Source of the DNA: Verrucomicrobiota bacterium
GTDB lineage: Bacteria > Verrucomicrobiota > Verrucomicrobiia > Verrucomicrobiales > Akkermansiaceae
Length of the DNA stretch: 10,031 bases
Direction: 5' to 3'
Assembly (NCBI GenBank): GCA_026397695.1
Contig: JAPLUJ010000356.1
Span: 680 to 10,710 of the forward strand
The notes under the pieces were generated by a model that had not been told where the DNA came from, made no database searches, and saw only the letters and a list, made by a program, of their open reading frames with translations. The translations under genes were made by a program, and so were the position numbers. Shown here piece after piece: positions 1 through 9,899 of this stretch (the stretch's first letter is position 1; each line of letters opens with the position of its first letter).

Positions 1-114
1 GGATCCGGTGTAGTTACTGATCGTCGCCGTCAGGTTGACGGTGCCGGGCGTTGACACGGCCATGGCTACCGGGGTGATGAGCATGGCGGCAAGCACTGCG
101 GCGAATAATTTCAT
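1..114 (-). CDS. exported protein of unknown function, N-terminal part only
   Basis: Only the first 38 codons are inside the window; the gene runs off the left edge. The product starts MKLFAAVLAAMLITPVAMA, a compact Sec signal peptide with a likely signal peptidase I cleavage after A-M-A. The visible mature part (VSTPGTVNLTATISNYTGS) is rich in Thr/Ser and looks like the start of a beta-rich extracellular or periplasmic domain; I do not recognise the family. An in-frame ATG at 132 would add MQQKRE and a more basic n-region. I chose 114 because the A-rich stretch before it resembles the leaders of other genes here; the choice is weak. No Shine-Dalgarno is seen. It lies downstream of the Ig/Calx-beta gene on the same strand after a gap of about 400 bases, so it probably has its own promoter. 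The signal-peptide DNA is very similar to that of the small ORF at 3272-3430. Confidence 0.6.
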   Translation of the reverse strand, partial: MKLFAAVLAAMLITPVAMAVSTPGTVNLTATISNYTGS

Positions 115-528
115 TTCACGTTTTTGTTGCATGCTGGTCTGATGGTTGGTTGCGGGTACCATTCATCAACCAAAGATTACAGCCAACGCGCGCCGCGCTA
201 CGCAAAAGCAAGCAAATCATCCGCATATATTGCGTTCCGGGCTGACTGAGGCGGCCACAAGGTGGTAGCCAAACAGGAGTTGCGCTCTCGCTGAGAGCAC
301 ATGTCAAAGGACCGCCAATAAGGTGCCCTGGCATGAGCCCCCTCGTCCATACTGGTGGCTTGCGTGGACGAGCACGGCGAGCCCGGTTGGATCGGCCGCA
401 ATCCCACGTTGCGCATCCACCGGCTGAGCTTGCGCGGTTGCTGGCCGGTCATCCAGATGGAATAGCCGCGCGCAAGACAAGGCGCCCTCAGCGCGGCCGC
501 GCTGACTGTGAGGTTCTAACATGCGGGC
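115..528. other. intergenic stretch, no convincing gene
   Basis: This gap lies between two minus-strand genes. Short open frames exist on both strands, but their products are Arg/Pro/Ser-rich without recognisable motifs, as expected from frames opened by high GC. It holds an 18-bp perfect palindrome at 488-505 and a small hairpin at 284-298 (GCTCTC, 3-nt loop, GAGAGC). The part nearest position 115 should hold the promoter and leader for the gene at 1-114, but I see no clear -35/-10 pair. I see no tRNA, insertion sequence or CRISPR structure. Confidence 0.5.
488..505. repeat. 18-bp perfect palindrome (TCAGCGCGGCCGCGCTGA)
   Basis: The two 9-base halves are exact reverse complements. It begins 24 bases beyond the stop of the Ig/Calx-beta gene. 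As RNA it could form a GC-rich stem with a tight loop, so it may help end or protect that transcript, but no T-tract follows in the minus direction. As DNA it could be a dimeric protein site. The regional GC content makes chance GC palindromes more likely. Confidence 0.45.
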
Positions 529-2223
529 TCAAGGACTTTGAATCACCTTCACTCGGCCAAAACGCTGGTTTCCCCCTAACGGATCATCCACGACGACCCG
601 CTCCCAAGTCGAGTCGATCGAAGTGCCAGCCGGGGCCGTGGCATCCAGCCATGTGCCGAGGTCCGAGGAAAACTGCGGCGTGTAGCTGATGCCCGGATTG
701 GTGGCATCGACAAACTTGCGGCGGATGTATTCGATGCGCAGCTTGCCGCTCACCATGGATCCGCACGGCAGTCCTATGGTGTCGCCGTGGCCCGCAATCA
801 GCATGCGCACATCGGGCTTGGTGGCATCCATGTTGAAGGCGAATTTCGCCAAATTAGTTACCCCGTCGTTCTGCGGCGTCTGTGTCGGGCCGCGTTTATC
901 GACCGCCAGCACGCTCGCCCAACTGGAATAGGCGGTGTCGTCGTTGGTGATGGTGCCGCTGGCCACGTTTGGTGAACCCACCGTGTAGCCCGCGCCGGTG
1001 GCGACTGTTAGGTCCACAGTTTCGTTAGGTTCCACGGTGCTGTCCAAAGTCGGATCGATGGTCACTTTGACGGTTGCTGAACCCGCCGCGAAGCTCACGG
1101 TTCCGGTGGTCGCGGTGAAGGTGGTCGCACCGCTTGCCGTGTAATCGCTATCGGATAATGTGGCGCTTCCGCCTACGTTGAAGTTGATGGCAAGCCCTGC
1201 CGTCGTGGAGCCCGTCCGCGTGAAGGTGTACTCGAGGTTGCCTGCGCCGTCCTCGGCGACACTGACAGGCGCTACCGCGACTGTCACGGACGGACTGGTG
1301 ACGTTGACGACTGCCGTGGTGGAGTTGGCGTAAACCGTGCTCGCGCCCAGCACTGACTTGAGTCTCACCCAGTAGTTGGTGGTGGTAGTCAGTGCTGGTG
1401 TGGTGAAAGAAGACGATGTGCCAAGAATGGTACCGATGGTCCCTGTTGTTCCCTGATACCATTCATAGGTCAGCGTGCCGGCGGCTTGGGCGGCCGGGGG
1501 GCCAGAGCCTACGATGGGGATTGTAAGGGGATTACCCTCGGCGACGCAGTTCAGAATGGTGGTGCCACCGCTGCTGATCGTGGTCGTGGCGGCGGGTTGT
1601 GTGGAGAATCCCAGCACGCAGATGTTGAAGATCTGAGCTGCGGTGGAACTTCCATAGCTAGCGTTCCTGTAAACATTGATCGTCACCGGGTAGATCCCCG
1701 GTAAGGCGGTGGGAGTGCCACTGATAGTAATAAGGCCGCCGACACCGACAGCTGGATTTGGGAGCGGGTCTAGTGCCGGACCGAGACCGGCCGGCAGGGT
1801 GCCGACGACGCCGCCAGTCGTGCATCTCCAGCTTTTCACGGAAGAAAAACTATTGTTGGGGTCCCAGTTGAAACTGAAAGTGAGAGGGGCAGAGACCGTG
1901 GCGGGAACATTAATCGCAGTCGTCCCCGTAGGCGATGTGCCTGCCGGATTCTTACCGAGAACGACAAGAGGCGCCCTCTCGCTGATTTGGCTTTGTCCCG
2001 CGACCGAATCGAATACCCCCAGCCCGACGACGGTGGTGACGGCGAGGGTGAAGCTGTTAGCCAGCGCCGCGCCGCCCATGATGTTGGCTTCCGGAAACAG
2101 GAATTGGACAATGGGCGAGCGCTGGAAAAGCAGGATCAGCGAGCCGAGTCGCGAGAGAACGAGCCTCAGGCGGGGTGGGATTCGATAGGTATTCATCGAA
2201 ATCATGGAGCGGATGGTTTGCAT
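529..2223 (-). CDS. large exported Ig-like/Calx-beta protein, candidate flavin acceptor
   Basis: The protein has 564 residues. Residues 1-80 hold a basic, hydrophobic leader (LVLSRLGSLILLF around 21-33) and a second hydrophobic segment (about 56-71) that ends in D72-S-V-A-G-Q-S78. Residues 105-185 and 205-310 look like two Ig-like beta domains, the second with NCVAEG and YEWYQG. Residues 312-430 are a Calx-beta repeat: VSVAEDG, a beta-rich core with a DSDYT turn, EPNET, then SGTITNDD. The C-terminal part contains DGVTNLAKFAFNMD and SSDLGTWLDAT, a tail style I associate with Verrucomicrobia secreted proteins. No catalytic motif is visible. It starts 40 bases after the apbE stop and is probably co-transcribed with it. 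In-frame ATGs at 2205 and 2196 are alternative starts; the leader before 2223 is A-rich without a Shine-Dalgarno. I infer an extracytoplasmic adhesive or structural protein that may carry covalent FMN. Confidence 0.8.
   Translation of the reverse strand: MQTIRSMISMNTYRIPPRLRLVLSRLGSLILLFQRSPIVQFLFPEANIMGGAALANSFTLAVTTVVGLGVFDSVAGQSQISERAPLVVLGKNPAGTSPTGTTAINVPATVSAPLTFSFNWDPNNSFSSVKSWRCTTGGVVGTLPAGLGPALDPLPNPAVGVGGLITISGTPTALPGIYPVTINVYRNASYGSSTAAQIFNICVLGFSTQPAATTTISSGGTTILNCVAEGNPLTIPIVGSGPPAAQAAGTLTYEWYQGTTGTIGTILGTSSSFTTPALTTTTNYWVRLKSVLGASTVYANSTTAVVNVTSPSVTVAVAPVSVAEDGAGNLEYTFTRTGSTTAGLAINFNVGGSATLSDSDYTASGATTFTATTGTVSFAAGSATVKVTIDPTLDSTVEPNETVDLTVATGAGYTVGSPNVASGTITNDDTAYSSWASVLAVDKRGPTQTPQNDGVTNLAKFAFNMDATKPDVRMLIAGHGDTIGLPCGSMVSGKLRIEYIRRKFVDATNPGISYTPQFSSDLGTWLDATAPAGTSIDSTWERVVVDDPLGGNQRFGRVKVIQSP
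1990..2010 (-). other. candidate covalent flavinylation motif (D-S-V-A-G-Q-S)
   Basis: This encodes residues 72-78 of the Ig/Calx-beta protein. ApbE enzymes attach FMN to the last Ser/Thr of a D-x-x-[ST]-G-A-[ST]-type site in NqrB/NqrC/RnfG and related domains. Here Asp1, Gly5 and Ser7 fit; Ala4 and Gln6 do not. The next gene upstream in the operon is apbE, which makes the resemblance more meaningful. The assignment is inferred from motif and neighbourhood only. Confidence 0.35.
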
Positions 2224-2263
2224 GGTGTGTTTGTTTTTGTGTTTTGGTTAGGTGGGGAGATAA

Positions 2264-3235
2264 TCAGGCGGCTTGGACTTGGCGGCGGATGAAGCCGGGG
2301 GTGGCTTCGGTGCCACGGTCGGTTTGGATGCAGGCATCGACATCACGGCCGCAGGCGGCGAAGCGCAGGCCGGCCTTGAGGCCGAGCACAAAGATGGCAG
2401 TGCTGTAGATGCCCGCCTGCAGGCAGGTGGGGGCGATGACGGAGACGCCGCGCACGCCGTTGGCCACCGGCCAACCGGTGCGGGGATCGAGGATGTGACC
2501 GTAGCGCACGCCGTTGAACTCGAAGCGCCGGAGCGCGTCTCCCGAAGCGGCGACTCCGAAGTCCGATACCGCGAGACCGCCCCAGCAGGTACCGCTGTGC
2601 CGGGCATCCTCGAGACCGACGTACCAAAACGGATGCTGGCCATTGCCGCCTATGGCATAGAGATCGCGGCCGAGATCGACGAGCGCATCCTGGATGCCAT
2701 GCTCGCGGGCGATGCGGACCAACTGATCGACCGCGTATTCCTTGCCGAAGCCGCCAAAATCCAAGCCCATGCCTAACAGGGGGAGATAGACATGCCCCGG
2801 CTTGCGCTGGAGTTTCCGGAAACCGGTGAGGGCGAGTGCCGCCTTGATTTCGGCCTTGTCCGGGAGCTTGGTGTGCACGGTTTTCCAGTCCCAAACACGC
2901 AGCAAAGGAAGCATGGTGGGATCCAGAATACCGTCGGTTAGATGGTGCAGGTCGGCGGCAAGATCCAGCAGTTGCTCGGTTTCGGCGTCCACCTTGATCC
3001 ATTCACGACCGGCAGCGGCGTTGATCTTGGAAATGACAGAGTCTGGACGAAAGCGGGAGAACTTCGCTTCAAAAGAGGACAGCCAATCCAGCGCGGCGGC
3101 GAGGAATTGCCGCGCGGTCTTCTCCCCGGGATGGCGGAATTGGATCACGCACCCGGTTCCCAAGGCCCGAAACTCCACCCGCCGGACACCACGCGCATCC
3201 ACTGGCGGGACAAGGCTGGCGATGGAGGCGGTCAT
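2264..3235 (-). CDS. apbE: FAD:protein FMN transferase, ApbE family
   Basis: Transfers FMN from FAD to a Ser/Thr of target proteins, usually outside the cytoplasm, in a Mg-dependent reaction. The 323 residues cover the whole domain: RALGTG (23-28, usual MGT), SVISKIN (66-71), ILDPTMLPLLRVW (103-115), LDFGGFGKEYAVD (158-170), VDLGRDLYAIGG (186-197, usually GGD), ASGD (230-233) and HILDPRTGWPV (247-257). Near the C-terminus AGIYSTAIFVLG (274-285) matches the usual AD-ALSTA-FVLG block, but the conserved metal-binding Asp is Gly275 while Thr279 is kept. From the ATG at 3235 there is no signal peptide, which is unusual because many ApbE proteins are exported. A signal-peptide ORF lies directly upstream in the same frame behind a UAG. 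No Shine-Dalgarno precedes 3235. The next gene in the operon is the Ig/Calx-beta protein, a possible substrate. Confidence 0.92.
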   Translation of the reverse strand: MTASIASLVPPVDARGVRRVEFRALGTGCVIQFRHPGEKTARQFLAAALDWLSSFEAKFSRFRPDSVISKINAAAGREWIKVDAETEQLLDLAADLHHLTDGILDPTMLPLLRVWDWKTVHTKLPDKAEIKAALALTGFRKLQRKPGHVYLPLLGMGLDFGGFGKEYAVDQLVRIAREHGIQDALVDLGRDLYAIGGNGQHPFWYVGLEDARHSGTCWGGLAVSDFGVAASGDALRRFEFNGVRYGHILDPRTGWPVANGVRGVSVIAPTCLQAGIYSTAIFVLGLKAGLRFAACGRDVDACIQTDRGTEATPGFIRRQVQAA

Positions 3236-3271
3236 GACGGCGGAACTTGATTTAACTACTAAAGCAAAGGT

Positions 3272-3430
3272 CTAACAATCAGCCCCGGGACACACCTGGG
3301 CCATGGCCGCCGGGGTGAGGAGCATGACACCGAGCGTCACCGCCCACAAACCAGCACGCAGGGCACGCAGGCAATGGCGGGAGTTGGCACTGAGGGAGCG
3401 GAGAAAACGCAGGAAGAACAAGGGATGCAT
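3272..3430 (-). CDS. small signal-peptide ORF (52 aa), in frame with apbE across one UAG
   Basis: Translation gives a basic start (MHPLFFLRFLRSLS, several Arg), a hydrophobic core (WAVTLGVMLLTPAAMA) and, after a likely A-M-A cleavage site, only eight residues, QVCPGADC, before TAG at 3272-3274. The next 12 codons to the apbE ATG at 3235 are open and in the same frame, so removing the single UAG would give ApbE a signal peptide and a linker of about 40 residues. The 12 linking codons are AT-rich, unlike the gene body, which argues that they are not long-established coding sequence. Alternatives are a genuine tiny secreted Cys peptide or a decayed 5' end of a gene like that at 1-114, whose signal-peptide DNA is very similar. 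No Shine-Dalgarno is visible. Confidence 0.4.
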   Translation of the reverse strand: MHPLFFLRFLRSLSANSRHCLRALRAGLWAVTLGVMLLTPAAMAQVCPGADC

Positions 3431-3666
3431 GCGAGGTTGTGGGTGGGTATGGATTGAATGATTGAGGAATAAACGATATGGATTATTCTTACTATTTATT
3501 TCTCATGAGGCGAATCTGCCGCCCCTACCGCTGGGCGTCAACTATTTTTTGGGGATTTTTTTCGCGGTTAAGTAATAAGATTGACAACCCTCGCCCGGGC
3601 TTCATCAAGTTTCGCGGCATATTTTGCTTGTTGCTCACTTCATTTCAAACCGCCATCCCACTCTCC
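3431..3666. promoter_or_regulatory. AT-rich divergent intergenic region
   Basis: This separates the minus-strand apbE group from the plus-strand cytochrome-porin operon and is clearly more AT-rich than its surroundings between about 3450 and 3660. It should hold promoters for both sides. A perfect TTGACA occurs at 3581-3586, but no good -10 box sits 16-18 bases later. An inverted repeat GAATAA/TTATTC with a 10-base spacer lies at 3467-3488 and could be an operator. An open frame from 3478 runs in frame into the cytochrome, but its residues lack any motif and the real signal sequence starts at 3667, so I treat the stretch as non-coding. Confidence 0.4.
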
Positions 3667-4500
3667 ATGAAGACCCACTGGAAAATCCCGCATGTTTCGA
3701 CCATCCGCCGCTGGGTTTGTGAAAAACCAAGCCATCTTTTGTGGCTCGCGGGAGGCGGAGCATCGGTGGCTCTGGTCCTGATATCATGCGGCACCACTTC
3801 ACGCACGATGATGGCTCCGCCCAGCATCCCGGGGGCTACTTTCATCGGCTCGGGCGAGTGCGCGGAGTGCCATGCAAAGGTGGCCCGCGACTTCCGCACC
3901 GCTGACCATGCGAAACTTCAAGCCAAGGGCAAGAATGCCGCGGACATGGGTTGCGAATCCTGCCACGGACCGGGCAGCAAACACAAGGAAGCCGGCGGCG
4001 GCGCGGGTACCATCGTCAATCCCAAGAAATCCCCGGCAACCTGTTTCCAATGCCACCTCGACAAAAAAGCCGAGTTCATGCTGCCCTACAGCCACCCCCT
4101 GCTCGCCGGCAAAATCACGTGCGGCGATTGCCATGACCCGCACAAGGGCTCGGCCCACAAGGGCGGCGGCACCCAGATCACCGGCAAAAACGACACCTGC
4201 TTCAAGTGCCACACCCAGCAGCGCGGACCATTTGTGTTCCGGCACAATGCCGTGCGCGATGGCTGCACCACCTGCCACAACCCGCACGGCTCCGTGAATC
4301 AGAAAATGCTCACCGAACGCAACTCAAACCTGTGCCTGAAATGCCACTTCCAACGACAGATGAACGGCCCTGGCGTGGATGAGATCCAGATCGGCAGCAG
4401 AGTCCACGGAAACGTCAAACTCGGCACGGGTGCCTGCTGGTCGGGAGGCTGTCACGAAGGCGTCCATGGTTCGAACGTGAGCAACCATCTCCGCAACTAA
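3667..4500 (+). CDS. octaheme MtrA/DmsE-like periplasmic c-type cytochrome
   Basis: Expected to carry electrons through the periplasm into an outer-membrane barrel. From Met3667 the protein has 277 residues. The hydrophobic segment LLWLAGGGASVALVLISC (24-41) ends in a lipobox-like LISC, so it may be a lipoprotein on Cys41 or simply Sec-exported. Seven CxxCH heme sites start at Cys65, 96, 126, 152, 178, 200 and 223. An eighth, C257-WSGG-CH263, has four residues between the cysteines. GCESCHGPGSKH and the tail CHEGVHGSNVSNHLRN are typical of the DmsE/MtrA/PioA group, whose classical members carry ten hemes and are longer. The start at 3667 gives a normal signal sequence; the open frame continues upstream to 3478 without a recognisable product. 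No Shine-Dalgarno is seen. The MtrB-like gene begins 19 bases after its stop, so the two form an operon. Confidence 0.9.
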   Translation: MKTHWKIPHVSTIRRWVCEKPSHLLWLAGGGASVALVLISCGTTSRTMMAPPSIPGATFIGSGECAECHAKVARDFRTADHAKLQAKGKNAADMGCESCHGPGSKHKEAGGGAGTIVNPKKSPATCFQCHLDKKAEFMLPYSHPLLAGKITCGDCHDPHKGSAHKGGGTQITGKNDTCFKCHTQQRGPFVFRHNAVRDGCTTCHNPHGSVNQKMLTERNSNLCLKCHFQRQMNGPGVDEIQIGSRVHGNVKLGTGACWSGGCHEGVHGSNVSNHLRN

Positions 4501-4519
4501 CATCCAATCCTTTTCTTTC

Positions 4520-6631
4520 ATGAAACGCACCACTCTCAACGGAAAGACCGGCAAGCACACCATGATCCGGCTTGGCTGCGCCACGGCATGCTGCGTGCTG
4601 TCGCTACAGGCTTTCGCCAAAGACGGCATGGCCAAGCAAGATGAACCGGCCGCAGAGGAATCGCCCGCCAATTGGATCGACTTCACATTGGGTTATGCGT
4701 CTGTCACCGGCAGAGACGCCACCTTCCAAAGCCGCGCGCGTCAGAACGATGATTTCTACGGCGGCCTTTCGTCGCTGCGCTGGGAGAAGGAAATGGACGA
4801 TCTGACATTTCTCATCGAAGGTCACGCGTTGTTCGGGATGGCGGACTATGACATCACCCTGGGAGTCCCGAAAAAGGATGTCGGCTACGTGAAGGGCGGC
4901 TTCCGCCAGTTCCGCACCTGGTATGACAGCACCGGCGGTTATGTCCCGGGGATTGCCGGCGGATGGATCCCGCTTTATGGGGACGATGAACTATCCGTGG
5001 ATCGCGGCGAGCTTTGGTTCGAAGCCGGACTGCGCAAGGAACACGTCCCGGAAATAACCTTCGGCTACTCGCACGAATGGCGTGACGGCACCAAGGACTC
5101 CACAGCGTGGGGTCAAAGCGTCCCGCTCGGACCCTCAGGATGGAACTATGGCATCGTTCCAACACTCAACTACATCGACGAACGGCGTGACACCTTCCGT
5201 CTCGATATCACCCATACCCTTGGCAATACCGATCTCGGTTTGGGGCTGCGCTATGAGTCGGTGAGGAATGATGATACCCTGATCATCCACCAACAACCGG
5301 GCGCGGAGTTTGCCTGGGATGACCTGACCAGCAAGCAGCGCAATGTTTATGATTCCGATTTGTTCAGTGCGCATATCTTCAGCGAAACCCGCATCAACGA
5401 CCGGATGCTCATGAGTTTCGGCTATTTCCACACCACCATGGATACCGATACCAACGGCAGTTCCCGCATCGTGGTGGACCGGGATGGCACCCGCTCATAC
5501 AATGATCACGCTTTCGACACCTTGTCGGGCGGAGGGCAGCTTTCCCTCAACGTGGCCAATGCCAACTTCTGGTGGAATCCCATCGACAATCTGGTGATTG
5601 TCCCGTCCTTCCGCGCCGAGTGGGAAGACACCAGCGCGTCCTCGGATTTCTTCAATGGGGAACACATCCGGGATGCCAGCGATTCCGATACCAACCAACT
5701 CACCGAGCAGCTCGAAATTCTGTACACCGGCTGGGAAAATCTCGAGCTCTATTCCAAGGTTGAATTGTCACAGACCAACGGCGACATCTCGTATCACAAT
5801 ATCAATTACGACGCCGATAACAGCAGCTTCCACTTTCAGTCATCGGACATCACGCAGGAAAAATACATGGTGGGCGCCAATTGGTATCCGCTGCAAGGCT
5901 TGAGCGTGGCCGCCCAGTATTACCATAAAAACTTCAACGAGGATTATGACAACTCATACCAATACGATGCGTCCAAGTGGACCGATTTCGATGCCCATCT
6001 CAAGAACTACAACTGCAGCACCGATGACGCGAATCTCCGCCTGACCTGGCGCGCCATGCCCAACCTCACCCTCGTCAGCCGCTACGATTATCAACGCACG
6101 ACCATGGAAAACCGGGCCTACACCTTCAACCCGGGTGATGATCCACAGGTGATCACAAACCTCGCCCAGAGCGCCGAGATCACCCGCCACATCTTCAGCC
6201 AGAGCGTGAACTGGCTGCCGGTCAGCCAGGCTTATGTGCAAGGCTCTATCAGCTATGTGCGCGCACACACGAACACCCCCGCCGACAAATACGCCCCGCA
6301 GCGGGTGACCGACTCGAACAACGACTACGTGACGGCCAACGTGACGGTGGGTTACGCACTGGACCAGAAGACCGATATCCGGGTTAGTTACACGTATTAC
6401 TCTTCGAGTGACTTTGACATTCCTTACGAGTCGCCGGGCGTCCCCGGCTCCGTCCCCTACGGAACCGATTTGGAAGAACACGTTTTCTCCCTGTCCTTGA
6501 ACCGCCGGATCAGCCCGCGCATGATCTGGAACATGGGCTACGGCTACTTCACCAGCAATGAAGGGACCACCGGCGGCCACAGCGACTTCTCCGCCCACAT
6601 GGTCTCGACCGGCTTGCAAGTGCGCTTCTGA
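4520..6631 (+). CDS. MtrB/PioB-like outer-membrane beta-barrel (porin partner of the cytochrome)
   Basis: The 703-residue product has a signal peptide (MIRLGCATACCVLSLQAFA core, cleavage after AFA at about 33), then alternating short beta strands rich in Tyr, Trp and Asp to the end, closing with STGLQVRF, whose terminal Phe is the usual BAM insertion signal. Size, the aromatic early motifs (GGFRQFRTWYDSTGG, SHEWRDGTKDSTAW) and the position directly after an MtrA-like cytochrome support a barrel that encloses the multiheme protein. Such barrels are the sheath of porin-cytochrome electron conduits. The mature part has almost no cysteine and no CxxC. An ATG at 4562 is an alternative start that still leaves a signal peptide. 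The gap to the cytochrome is 19 bases without a Shine-Dalgarno, so translation may be coupled. No extracellular MtrC-type cytochrome follows; the next gene is convergent. Confidence 0.85.
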   Translation: MKRTTLNGKTGKHTMIRLGCATACCVLSLQAFAKDGMAKQDEPAAEESPANWIDFTLGYASVTGRDATFQSRARQNDDFYGGLSSLRWEKEMDDLTFLIEGHALFGMADYDITLGVPKKDVGYVKGGFRQFRTWYDSTGGYVPGIAGGWIPLYGDDELSVDRGELWFEAGLRKEHVPEITFGYSHEWRDGTKDSTAWGQSVPLGPSGWNYGIVPTLNYIDERRDTFRLDITHTLGNTDLGLGLRYESVRNDDTLIIHQQPGAEFAWDDLTSKQRNVYDSDLFSAHIFSETRINDRMLMSFGYFHTTMDTDTNGSSRIVVDRDGTRSYNDHAFDTLSGGGQLSLNVANANFWWNPIDNLVIVPSFRAEWEDTSASSDFFNGEHIRDASDSDTNQLTEQLEILYTGWENLELYSKVELSQTNGDISYHNINYDADNSSFHFQSSDITQEKYMVGANWYPLQGLSVAAQYYHKNFNEDYDNSYQYDASKWTDFDAHLKNYNCSTDDANLRLTWRAMPNLTLVSRYDYQRTTMENRAYTFNPGDDPQVITNLAQSAEITRHIFSQSVNWLPVSQAYVQGSISYVRAHTNTPADKYAPQRVTDSNNDYVTANVTVGYALDQKTDIRVSYTYYSSSDFDIPYESPGVPGSVPYGTDLEEHVFSLSLNRRISPRMIWNMGYGYFTSNEGTTGGHSDFSAHMVSTGLQVRF

Positions 6632-6640
6632 TGTGCTGGA

Positions 6641-6658
6641 TGATACCCCTCCGTATCA
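6641..6658 (+). terminator. weak hairpin after the cytochrome-porin operon
   Basis: TGATAC and GTATCA form a 6-bp stem with loop CCCTCC, starting 10 bases after the porin stop. A second 6-bp stem lies at 6719-6735 (CGGCAC/GTGCCG). Neither has a T-run after it, so intrinsic termination is doubtful. Confidence 0.25.
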
Positions 6659-6754
6659 GGGTTTGCGGGCTGGTTTCGTGGACGGCAACCGTAGGATGAA
6701 CGGTCGCAAAATGCACGCCGGCACCTCGCGTGCCGTGACGAGTCCGATGGTGAT

Positions 6755-6771
6755 CTGAAATTTGATTTCAG
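6755..6771 (-). terminator. hairpin at the end of acrB
   Basis: CTGAAAT (6755-6761) and ATTTCAG (6765-6771) form a perfect 7-bp stem with a 3-base loop that overlaps the acrB stop codon at 6768-6770. It sits in the short gap between convergent genes and could act in both directions, but the stem is AT-rich and no U-tract follows. Confidence 0.25.
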
Positions 6772-9700
6772 GGAGTTAGAGGGACCTGCTTCTTCGCACA
6801 CAACCGCGATACCAGGACGAAGAAAAACGGGATGAAGATCAGGTCGATGAAGGTGGCGGAAAGCAGGCCGCCGGTGACGGTGGTGCCGATGGCGTTCTGG
6901 GCCGCAGCGCCGGCACCCTTGGTCAGGGCCAGCGGCAAGGTGCCGAAGAAGAACGCCAGCGACGTCATGAGCACCGGGCGCAGCCGGATTCTAACAGCAG
7001 CCAGCGTGGCCTCCACCAGTTCATGCCCGTGAAGCATCTGGTCCTTGATGAACTGAATGATCAGGATGGCGTTCTTGGTGGAGAGGCCGACTGTTGTTAG
7101 AAGTCCGATCTGCAGATAGACGTCGTTAGGCAGGACCCGCAGCGTCACCGCCGTCACCGCCCCCACCAGTCCCAGCGGAATCATCAGCAGGTTGACAAAG
7201 GGAATCGTCCAGCTCTCATACAAAGCCGCCACACTGAGGAACACAACTAACAGCGAGATGGCATACAGCGCCGGTGCCTGTGCGCCGGCTTTCTTCTCCT
7301 CGTAGGAAAGACCGGTCCACTCGTAACCGATGCCCGGCGGAAGCTGCGCCGCCATGCGCTCCATTTCGGCCATCGCCTCGCCGGTGCTGACCCCGGGCAC
7401 GGCCTGCCCCATGATCTCGACGGACGGGATGCCGTTATAGCGTTCGAGGCGCGGCGATCCATATTGCCAGCGGGCGCTGGCAAAGGAGGAAAACGGCGCC
7501 ATCTCGTCACGGTTGTTTCTAACATACCATTTGTTGATATCCTCCGGCAGCATCCGGTATTCCGCGGCGGCCTGCAGAAAGACCTTCTTGACCCGGCCGT
7601 TTTGGATGAAGTCGTTGACGTAGGAACTGCCCCAAGCCGTGGCCAGCACGCTGTTGATATCATTGAGTGAGACGCCCATGGCACCGGCCCGCGTGTCATC
7701 GATGTCCAGCTTGAACTGCGGCGAGTCATCCTGGCCGTTGGGACGCACCAACATCAATTTCGGGTTTTGCATGGCCATGCCTAACAATTGGTTGCGCGCC
7801 GCCATCAATTGCGTGTGTCCCAGCCCGCTGCGATCCTGCAACATGAAGTCAAACCCGTTGGCCTGCCCGAGTTCGTTCACCGCCGGTGGAGAAATGGCGA
7901 ATGCCATGCCATCCTTGATTTGTGAGAAGGCCCCCATGGCTCTGGCAGCCAGGGCGGGTGCCTTCAATTCGGGGGCCTGGCGCAGCTTCCAGTCCTTGAG
8001 CCGCACGAAGGCCAGCCCCATGTTCTGGCCGCGCCCGGCATAACTGAAGCCCGCCACCGTAATGACCGAAGTCACCGCTGCTTGTTCATTTTTCTCAAAA
8101 TGCTGTTCGATCTGTTGCATCACCTTGACCGTGCGTTCCAGCGTCGCCCCGGCCGGCAACTGGACTATACAAATGATGAACCCCTGATCCTCATCCGGCA
8201 GGAAAGCGGTGGGCAGCCGCAAAAACAGGAAACCCATGCACGCCACGATCGCACCGTAAAGCGCCAGATACCGCAGCGGCTTGCCGAAGGATCGACTCAC
8301 TATCGATTCATATCGCGAGCGACTGAAGTTGAAACATGCGTTGAACACGCGGAAAAACCCCTTGAACCAGCCGGCTTCACCCGCAGTGTGCCCTTTCGCC
8401 ACTGGCTTGAGCAGGGTGGCGCACAGCGCCGGGGTCAGCGTCATGGCCAGCACCACCGAAAGGATCATCGCGGAAATGATCGTGATGGAAAACTGACGGT
8501 AAATGACCCCGGTGGATCCCCCGAAAAACGCCATCGGTATGAACACGGCTGTTAGAACGGTGACTATGCCCCACAGCGCGCTGGTGATCTGGCCCATGGA
8601 TTTGATCGTCGCCTCCTTGGGTGGCAACCCTTCCTCGGTCATGATCCGCTCCACGTTCTCCACCACCACGATGGCATCGTCAACTAACAGTCCGATGACG
8701 ATGACCAGGGCGAACATGGTGAGCGTGTTGATGGAAAAACCGCTGAGCGACAGAACCCCGAAGGTGCGTAACAAAACAACCGGCACCGCGATGGTCGGGA
8801 TCAACGTGGCGCGGAAGTTCTGCAGGAAGAGGAACATGATGATAAACACCAGGCAGATTGCCTCGACCAGGGTCTTGACCACCTCTTCGATGGAGATTTT
8901 GACAAACGGAGTGGTGTCGTAGGGGTAAACCACCTTCATCCCGGCGGGAAAGTATTTGGACAGTTCCTCCATCTTCGCCTTGATCCGCGTGGCGGTCTCC
9001 AGCGCGTTGGCGCCGGAGGCCAACCGGATCGCCATGGCTCCCACCGGCTTGCCTTTGAAGAAAGACTGAACATCGTAGTTCTCGGTGCCGATCTTGCACT
9101 CGGCCACATCCCGCAGCTTGACCGTGGATCCGTCGCTGTGCGTGCGCAGGATCACCGCATCGAACTGATCCGTGGTCTGCAGCAGCGTCCGCGCATTGAT
9201 GGTCGCGTTCAACTGCTGCCCGTGCTTGGCGGGGCTGCCACCAAACTGGCCCGCCGAAACCTGGCTGTTCTGCGCCTGCAGCGCGACCATCACATCATTG
9301 GAGGTCAGCCGGTAGTTGTTCAACTTGTTAGGGTTCAGCCAGATCCGCATGGCGTTCTGGGACCCGAACACCTGCATTTCCCCCACCCCTTCGAGCCGGC
9401 TGACAATCTCCTGGACGTTGGACACCAGATAGTCAGTTAGATTGTTGCGGTCCATGGAACCATCCTCGGAGACCAATCCGACCAACAGCAGGAAGTTCTT
9501 GGTGGACTTGACCACTGAGATCCCCTGCCGCTGCACGATCTGGGGCAACAGCGGGGTGGCCAGTTGCAGTTTGTTCTGCACCTGCACCTGGGCGATGTTC
9601 GGGTCGGTGCCGGCCTTGAACGTCAGGTTGATGGCCACGGCCCCGGCGGAGTCGCTGCTCGACGACATGTAGATCAGGTTGTCGAGGCCGTTGAGTTTTT

Positions 9701-9899
9701 GTTCGACCACCTGGGTCACGGTATCCTGCACCGTCTGGGCGGAGGCCCCCGGATACATGGCGTTGATGGTGATCTGGGGCGGGGCGATCGGCGGATACTG
9801 GGAGACCGGCAGGGTGCGGATGGCCAGCAACCCCGCCAGCATGATCATGATGGCGATCACCCAGGCAAAGATCGGACGGTTGATGAAAAAGCGCGGCAT
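6768..9899 (-). CDS. acrB: AcrB-type RND multidrug efflux transporter (HAE1 family)
   Basis: Inner-membrane proton/drug antiporter that works as a trimer with a periplasmic adaptor and an outer-membrane channel. At 1043 residues it is full length for the HAE1 family. It begins [20 protein letters not shown], typical of the group. Asp407 and Asp408 in [12 protein letters not shown] (TM4) match the E. coli AcrB proton-relay pair, and Lys942 in [10 protein letters not shown] matches Lys940. [25 protein letters not shown] sequence (about 617-637) fits the porter domain, and the C-terminal [13 protein letters not shown] block is intact. Arg378 in VVLLRTF replaces a Gly expected in TM3 from E. coli AcrB. 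A good ribosome site (AAGGAGA, 7 bases before the ATG) overlaps the stop of the adaptor gene, so the two are one operon. It is convergent with the cytochrome-porin operon. It contains eight copies of TGTTAG/CTAACA. The drug range cannot be told from sequence. Confidence 0.96.

Follow-up and report, generated by a model that had tools for sequence, protein, structure and literature searches.

Do a flavin transferase gene and a porin-cytochrome gene pair that stand back to back in a verrucomicrobial genome belong to one electron-transfer machine or to two? The question was raised by a stretch of 10,031 nucleotides (hereafter the window; positions 680-10710 of contig C422, which is 10,710 bases long) from a draft genome of the Akkermansiaceae (G000; 759 contigs, 83% complete). 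The window contains a gene for ApbE, which attaches flavin mononucleotide (FMN) to proteins, followed by a gene for a protein with immunoglobulin-type (Ig) and Calx-beta domains (the Ig protein). Divergently from these, genes for an octaheme cytochrome and an outer-membrane barrel (together, the conduit) are found. The original prediction had joined all four into a single flavin-linked module; the open reading frames (ORFs) on which it was built are all present, including the 40 bases between the ApbE stop and the Ig start. In our study, we found, with a probability of about 0.62, that the window holds two separately inherited extracytoplasmic electron-transfer modules side by side, an ApbE-Ig pair derived from a DUF3570 operon and an orphan porin-cytochrome conduit. 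The two halves were probably brought together recently and are not one conserved machine.

A family survey of 195 genomes and a genus sample of 73 genomes were used for comparison. The G-numbered comparison genomes are drafts and many of them are akin to each other, so the p-values given below, which carry no correction for kinship, are not independent. The other conduit loci numbered 24, namely 23 in relatives and a second locus of G000 itself (L122); one of the 24, L173, shows no barrel. Within the stretches examined (3.7-18 kb for the conduits, some contigs stopping near the conduit genes), an ApbE or Ig gene was found in none of the 24 other conduit loci, and conduit genes were found in none of the 25 other ApbE loci. 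ApbE-A and a conduit were present in the same genome in 6 of 17 cases against 4.4 expected (p 0.24), which is near chance. The co-location survey thus revealed no conserved co-occurrence of the apbE and Ig genes with the cytochrome-porin pair, and the single module of four families was not sustained. The features on which the comparison rests are the following:

1..162, minus strand: first 54 codons of a gene for a DUF2271-like secreted protein, which continues off the window (L004 2-841) and has DGFTSAT further on
529..2223, minus strand: Ig/Calx-beta protein, 564 amino acids, with N-terminal helices, a candidate FMN-acceptor motif, Ig-type and Calx-beta sandwiches and a C-terminal beta domain
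1990..2175, minus strand: N-terminal signature (Ig protein residues 17-78), common to the Ig proteins of DUF3570-ApbE operons
1990..2010, minus strand: candidate ApbE acceptor motif D72-S-V-A-G-Q-S78 (consensus as in PMC12052999, excerpts)
2264..3235, minus strand: ApbE, flavin adenine dinucleotide (FAD):protein FMN transferase, 323 amino acids (PF02424, E 2e-70), of a subfamily without hydrophobic signal peptide
3272..3430, minus strand: ORF of 52 amino acids, the signal-peptide remnant of a DUF2271-like gene, resembling the gene opposite this cytochrome in G213
3360..6671, no strand: cassette that spans the divergent promoter region, the cytochrome and the barrel; it shares 95.7% identity with locus L157 of G213, where different genes stand on both sides
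about 3667..4500, plus strand: octaheme cytochrome of the MtrA/DmsE type with a lipobox-like LISC; the ORF opens at 3478 and the conserved start is at about 3667
4520..6631, plus strand: outer-membrane barrel of the verrucomicrobial porin-multiheme cytochrome type, a conserved family

ApbE, the Ig protein and the operon of their relatives

Among solved FMN transferases the ApbE of the window matched 7esa_A best (E 2e-35), and it retains the conserved GHILDP-TG segment. It belongs to a sharp subfamily (56-75% identity, E < 1e-109), which was found at 26 places in 24 of the 195 family genomes, the window included. In the relatives, the operon genes, identified by Pfam, stand in the order DUF3570-ApbE-(thioredoxin)-DUF4266-Ig; in the family survey DUF3570 was found upstream of ApbE, and thioredoxin and DUF4266 between ApbE and Ig, with gaps in some loci. 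An Ig gene was present downstream on the same contig in 21 of the 25 other loci of the subfamily, and in the remaining four the contig ends there. At L099, one of these four, the first residues of the Ig signature were still readable. The predicted link between ApbE and the Ig protein is borne out by these loci.

A GTDB-wide scan with the Ig N-terminus as query gave 33 loci, several of them on contigs already represented in the family survey; the related records carry names such as Akkermansiaceae, Verrucomicrobiaceae and Prosthecobacter. The complete set of five genes (DUF3570, ApbE, thioredoxin, DUF4266 and Ig) was found in 25 of the 33 loci. Gene by gene, DUF3570 and DUF4266 were each found in 29, ApbE in 28, thioredoxin in 25 and DsbD in 3. 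Among the five loci without ApbE, three have the Ig gene at most 120 bases from a contig end, L153 is an apparent deletion fusion, and L155 keeps DUF4266 and DUF3570. ApbE, DUF4266 or DUF3570 was seen at 30 of the 33 signature loci, and the other three begin at contig ends. The ApbE proteins of a second genus form a group further removed (about 40% identity), listed at 23 places. In all 12 loci examined among these (L201-L212), DUF3570-ApbE-DUF4266 was followed by a short Ig relative of about 290 amino acids (four loci analysed gene by gene), and neither thioredoxin nor a conduit was found in any of the 12. Two fusions, P0013 (in-frame ApbE-Ig) and L153 (DUF3570-Ig, lacking the motif), resemble deletion junctions and carry no weight as proof here.

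Previous work described a DsbD-type flavinylation cluster of ApbE, DUF3570, a thioredoxin-like protein and DUF4266, and showed the flavinylation of a DUF3570 protein (Meheust et al., 2021; PMC8238504, excerpts). The operon of the relatives has the same ApbE neighbours, with DsbD adjoining in the three loci counted above. The window shares the ApbE of this cluster, whereas DUF3570, thioredoxin and DUF4266 are not found around it: neither thioredoxin nor DUF4266 stands between ApbE and Ig, no thioredoxin was found on the contig, and DUF3570 (PF12094) and DUF4266 gave no match in the draft genome G000. Another partial loss, ApbE-DUF4266-Ig, was seen at L092/L138. The constant Ig protein of the relatives does not occur in the examined parts of the paper on the DsbD-type cluster (PMC8238504), and no description of it was found by open-access literature searches on these families. 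The new element is this Ig protein, a constant partner of the DUF3570-type flavinylation operon in two genera and beyond that seems to be undescribed. G000 has two more ApbE genes on other contigs (L005 2886-3737 and L006 3-812), and the L005 contig also encodes a DoxX-domain protein.

The N-terminus of the Ig family is well conserved and is followed by variable repeats; the closest N-terminus within the sample of 195 family genomes is 51% identical to that of the window. The Ig_7 and Calx-beta scores of the window protein were both under the Pfam cut-offs. An AlphaFold2 model (mean predicted local distance difference test score, pLDDT, 72) gave beta sandwiches that match those of Ig domains and of Calx CBD1, and Foldseek with this model returned generic Ig and Calx folds; a profile search of the PDB with the Ig family gave no match. 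The model contained helices at residues 17-48 and 51-67, followed by a low-confidence linker.

A candidate flavin acceptor motif

In most members of the Ig family the linker contains the motif D-[ST]-[VI]-[AST]-G-[AQ]-[TS]. The published ApbE consensus is D-x-x-[S/T]-G-A-[S/T], in which the last residue carries the FMN, and in one test protein an Ala-to-Val change at position 6 about halved flavinylation while D-to-A changes had minor effects (PMC12052999). We compared 88 distinct Ig N-termini, collected by profile with no condition set on the motif. The final S/T was present in 88 of 88 and the G in 87; the first position was D in 83, H in 4 and N in 1 (the L153 fusion), and position 6 was A in 60, Q in 25, V in 2 and P in 1. 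The presence of an ApbE-like motif at the Ig N-terminus supports the original prediction in part. The second genus contains H-[AS]-L-S-G-Q-[ST] in all 12 loci, where the Q recurs and the D is lost; such H-type motifs give less weight to the leading D and suggest more tolerance of Q at position 6. The DUF3570 proteins of the operons that contain the Ig genes are likewise unconstrained at position 6 (A 16, S 14, M 6 and E 2; n = 38), and a DUF3570 member of C. luteolum is a proven ApbE substrate. The motif makes the Ig protein a plausible ApbE substrate and its linker a candidate site of flavin attachment. The DUF3570 motif of the second genus is DSLTGMT or similar, and this genus offers a natural comparison for the motif positions that ApbE needs.

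Several observations weigh against the reading of two modules with a flavin-loaded ApbE-Ig half. The strict consensus was found in only 14 of the 88 N-termini, the DSVAGQS of the window retains D, G and S and departs at two of the five constrained positions, and the second genus has H instead of D. A signal peptide is absent by hydropathy in 22 of 22 members of the ApbE subfamily, so that FMN loading before export must be assumed, and the Asp just before STA in FmnB (7esa) is missing from this subfamily. Cytosolic ApbEs do exist (PMC12052999), which makes loading of the Ig protein before export possible. The gene absences are weak, since G000 is an incomplete draft, and L092/L138, the only other place seen to lack both DUF3570 and thioredoxin, comes from a genome with a complete operon as well (L090). 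The DUF2271-like gene of the window has no Pfam match of its own, contains a run of N and is positioned at the contig end.

A possibility to be taken seriously, though short of even, is that the Ig protein is not flavinylated. It would then be a surface or adhesive structural partner whose signature anchors it in the membrane or directs its export, with A-G-A at the end as the cleavage site, and ApbE would serve DUF3570 in the relatives and the DUF2271-like protein here. The hydrophobic helices that precede the motif fit this explanation, as do the A-G-A before T/S, which in many relatives is similar to a site of signal peptidase I, the rarity of the strict consensus, and the presence on the same contig of a DUF2271-like gene with DGFTSAT. 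Position 6 is, however, Q, V or P in 28 of the 88 N-termini and Q in 12 of 12 second-genus loci, which would hardly be tolerable at -1 for signal peptidase and weakens the signal-peptidase reading of the motif. The S/T after position 6 never changes, and the signature keeps the company of ApbE, DUF4266 or DUF3570 in the GTDB loci described above. A further argument, that of a natural knock-out (with DUF3570 lost, only the Ig protein would be left as substrate), was set aside, being weakened by the DUF2271-like gene on the same contig.

Under the two-module reading, ApbE would move FMN from FAD onto a Ser or Thr of exported partners. As DUF3570 was not found in G000, the likely remaining partners would be the Ig protein (at S78) and the downstream DUF2271-like protein. 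S78 is predicted to lie in a flexible linker after the N-terminal helices, and the attached FMN may pass electrons on, either within the periplasm or at the outer membrane. A more far-reaching proposal, which we consider rather doubtful, would make the Ig proteins a new class of ApbE substrate distinct from the FMN-bind proteins. FMN loaded in the cytosol would sit on the linker between a helical hairpin and the Ig stalk and serve, displayed outside, as the swinging redox arm of a DUF3570-thioredoxin-DUF4266 chain; in the lineage of the window, this arm would have lost its coupling to DUF3570 and ended up next to a conduit.

The conduit and the cassette shared with G213

The cytochrome of the window contains seven CXXCH and one CX4CH heme motifs. 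The 24 other cytochromes compared all contained eight motifs, 22 of them in the same arrangement and two as eight CXXCH. The cytochrome of the window matched 6r2q_A (E 1e-31), a chain taken here to be MtrA although the database listing labels the molecule otherwise. The matches to the DmsE/GSU2203 models were under the model cut-offs (163 bits against a cut-off of 192 for TIGR03508), and the S-C of the lipobox-like LISC was invariant in 16 aligned cytochromes. The cytochrome was found at E 1e-30 in 19 of the 73 genus genomes. The barrel is 703 amino acids long with F as its last residue, and is 37-52% identical to the barrels of 14 other loci and 96% identical to that of L157. In a sequence-level comparison of the barrel profile with the PDB, no MtrB chain was found among the matches. 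A lipoprotein-type octaheme cytochrome and a barrel of these kinds would together form a porin-cytochrome conduit.

Verrucomicrobial porin-multiheme clusters, in which a porin adjoins a cytochrome with eight heme sites, were reported previously (He et al., 2017; PMC5615132, excerpts). The window, with a porin gene adjoining an octaheme cytochrome gene, is alike in kind, by comparison with the published description of the Trout Bog genes. The fuller conduit clusters additionally hold genes for a monoheme cytochrome, a NapC-like cytochrome, ResB and CcsA, whereas the pair in the window lacks these extra genes and is an orphan second copy. The second and fuller conduit of G000, on contig C225 (L122 6656-11889), contains the cytochrome, the barrel, a monoheme cytochrome and a NapC-like multiheme cytochrome, the cluster being visible as far as the NapC-like gene. 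With MtrCAB and the porin-cytochrome complexes (PCC) of Shewanella and Geobacter, the window shares a cytochrome related to 6r2q_A and then a barrel gene. It differs in having eight hemes and not ten, and a barrel without sequence match to solved MtrB; no gene for an outer multiheme cytochrome (MtrC/OmcA) was found among the ORFs of the window.

The identity of the cassette to L157 exceeds that of the same two genomes elsewhere, which was 81.0% in the main conduit locus and 81.9% in a resistance-nodulation-division (RND) gene, and because of this difference the conduit pair is read as a recently shared cassette. Its flanks differ between the two genomes. After the barrel, the window has an AcrB-type RND efflux permease at 6768-9899 on the minus strand, matched at 75-85% DNA identity in seven of the eight genus genomes searched; in L157 a sulfatase fragment and a GH106 gene replace it, and the RND gene of G213 lies on another contig than the conduit. 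On the other side, a gene for a DUF2271-like/ASH protein faces the cytochrome in L157. The remnant at 3272-3430 is similar to this gene at the same place, which puts the left junction inside a real gene. The simplest reading of these alignments is that the cassette was shared recently, with recombination inside the DUF2271-like gene, and that ApbE-Ig then came to stand beside the conduit; the former divergent partner of the cassette would have been that DUF2271-like gene. At L157 6993-7250, tandem LHS repeats were found in the signal-peptide region of the DUF2271-like gene, where the similarity to the window breaks up. The remnant and the gene start at 1-162, both on the minus strand, had not been part of the original prediction.

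An assembly or binning artefact at the ApbE-conduit junction is quite improbable. The fragmentation and incompleteness of the draft would favour it, as would the two identity regimes to G213 on one contig and the run of N near the contig end. Against this, the left junction falls inside a real gene, as the remnant indicates, and mis-joined reads from the G213 population itself would have given an identity above 95.7%.

DUF2271-like proteins and the conduits

The DUF2271-like gene of the window lies downstream of the Ig gene (minus strand, start at 162) and resembles that of L157, which is above the PF10029 cut-off. PF10029 was matched by seven of seven aligned domains of relatives, with E 0.01 or better. 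DUF2271-like genes were found in 8 of the 73 genus genomes, one of them (G135) weak. One DUF2271 protein is a proven ApbE substrate (PMC8238504), and the same genus has a DUF2271-like domain with DG[FY]T[GST]AT beside ApbE. This motif was present in all eight copies compared; the genus copies differ from the described proteins in being joined to long repeat regions and in having S or T at position 5 in five of the eight. At L192, L193, L194 and L196, an ApbE (PF02424) of another subfamily directly follows the DUF2271-like gene. The repeats at the end of L157 recur on L188 before an ApbE, and the two are taken here as one gene split over two contigs, a presumed join. Single proteins with an ApbE-like region (by our reading) and then a DUF2271 domain bearing SSATRP were seen at L174, L175 and L176; the three genomes also hold the DUF3570 operon.

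A DUF2271-like gene was found near the conduit in one of the 24 other conduit loci (L157). At the genome level, six of the eight genomes with DUF2271-like genes also hold a conduit against 2.1 expected (p 0.003); without the weak G135 the count was 6/7 (p 0.0009), and without G000 it was 5/7 (p 0.009). The predicted association of flavin and conduit was not supported for ApbE and the Ig protein, and gained unexpected partial support from the DUF2271-like family. If flavins serve these conduits, the DUF2271-like proteins would be the better candidates.

These results also bear on the explanation by one functional unit, in which a flavinylated Ig protein, DUF2271-like protein or both would replace the outer cytochrome and exchange electrons with the octaheme-barrel conduit at the surface. 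The immediate divergent placement of ApbE-Ig and the conduit speaks for it, together with the same conduit facing a DUF2271-like gene in G213 (where, by the presumed join, the repeats continue before an ApbE), the genomic co-occurrence and the lack of an outer multiheme cytochrome among the window ORFs. We consider this explanation unlikely, as the other conduit loci contained no ApbE or Ig gene and only a single DUF2271-like gene, ApbE-A and conduits co-occurred near chance, and the conduit flanks differ between G000 and G213.

The function of the DUF3570-based flavin system is described as uncertain (PMC8238504). Where this system displays its flavin can be approached directly through a constant extra gene that bears an acceptor-like motif. 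If flavoproteins replace outer cytochromes on verrucomicrobial porin-heme conduits, models of electron transfer in humic waters must include covalent flavins.

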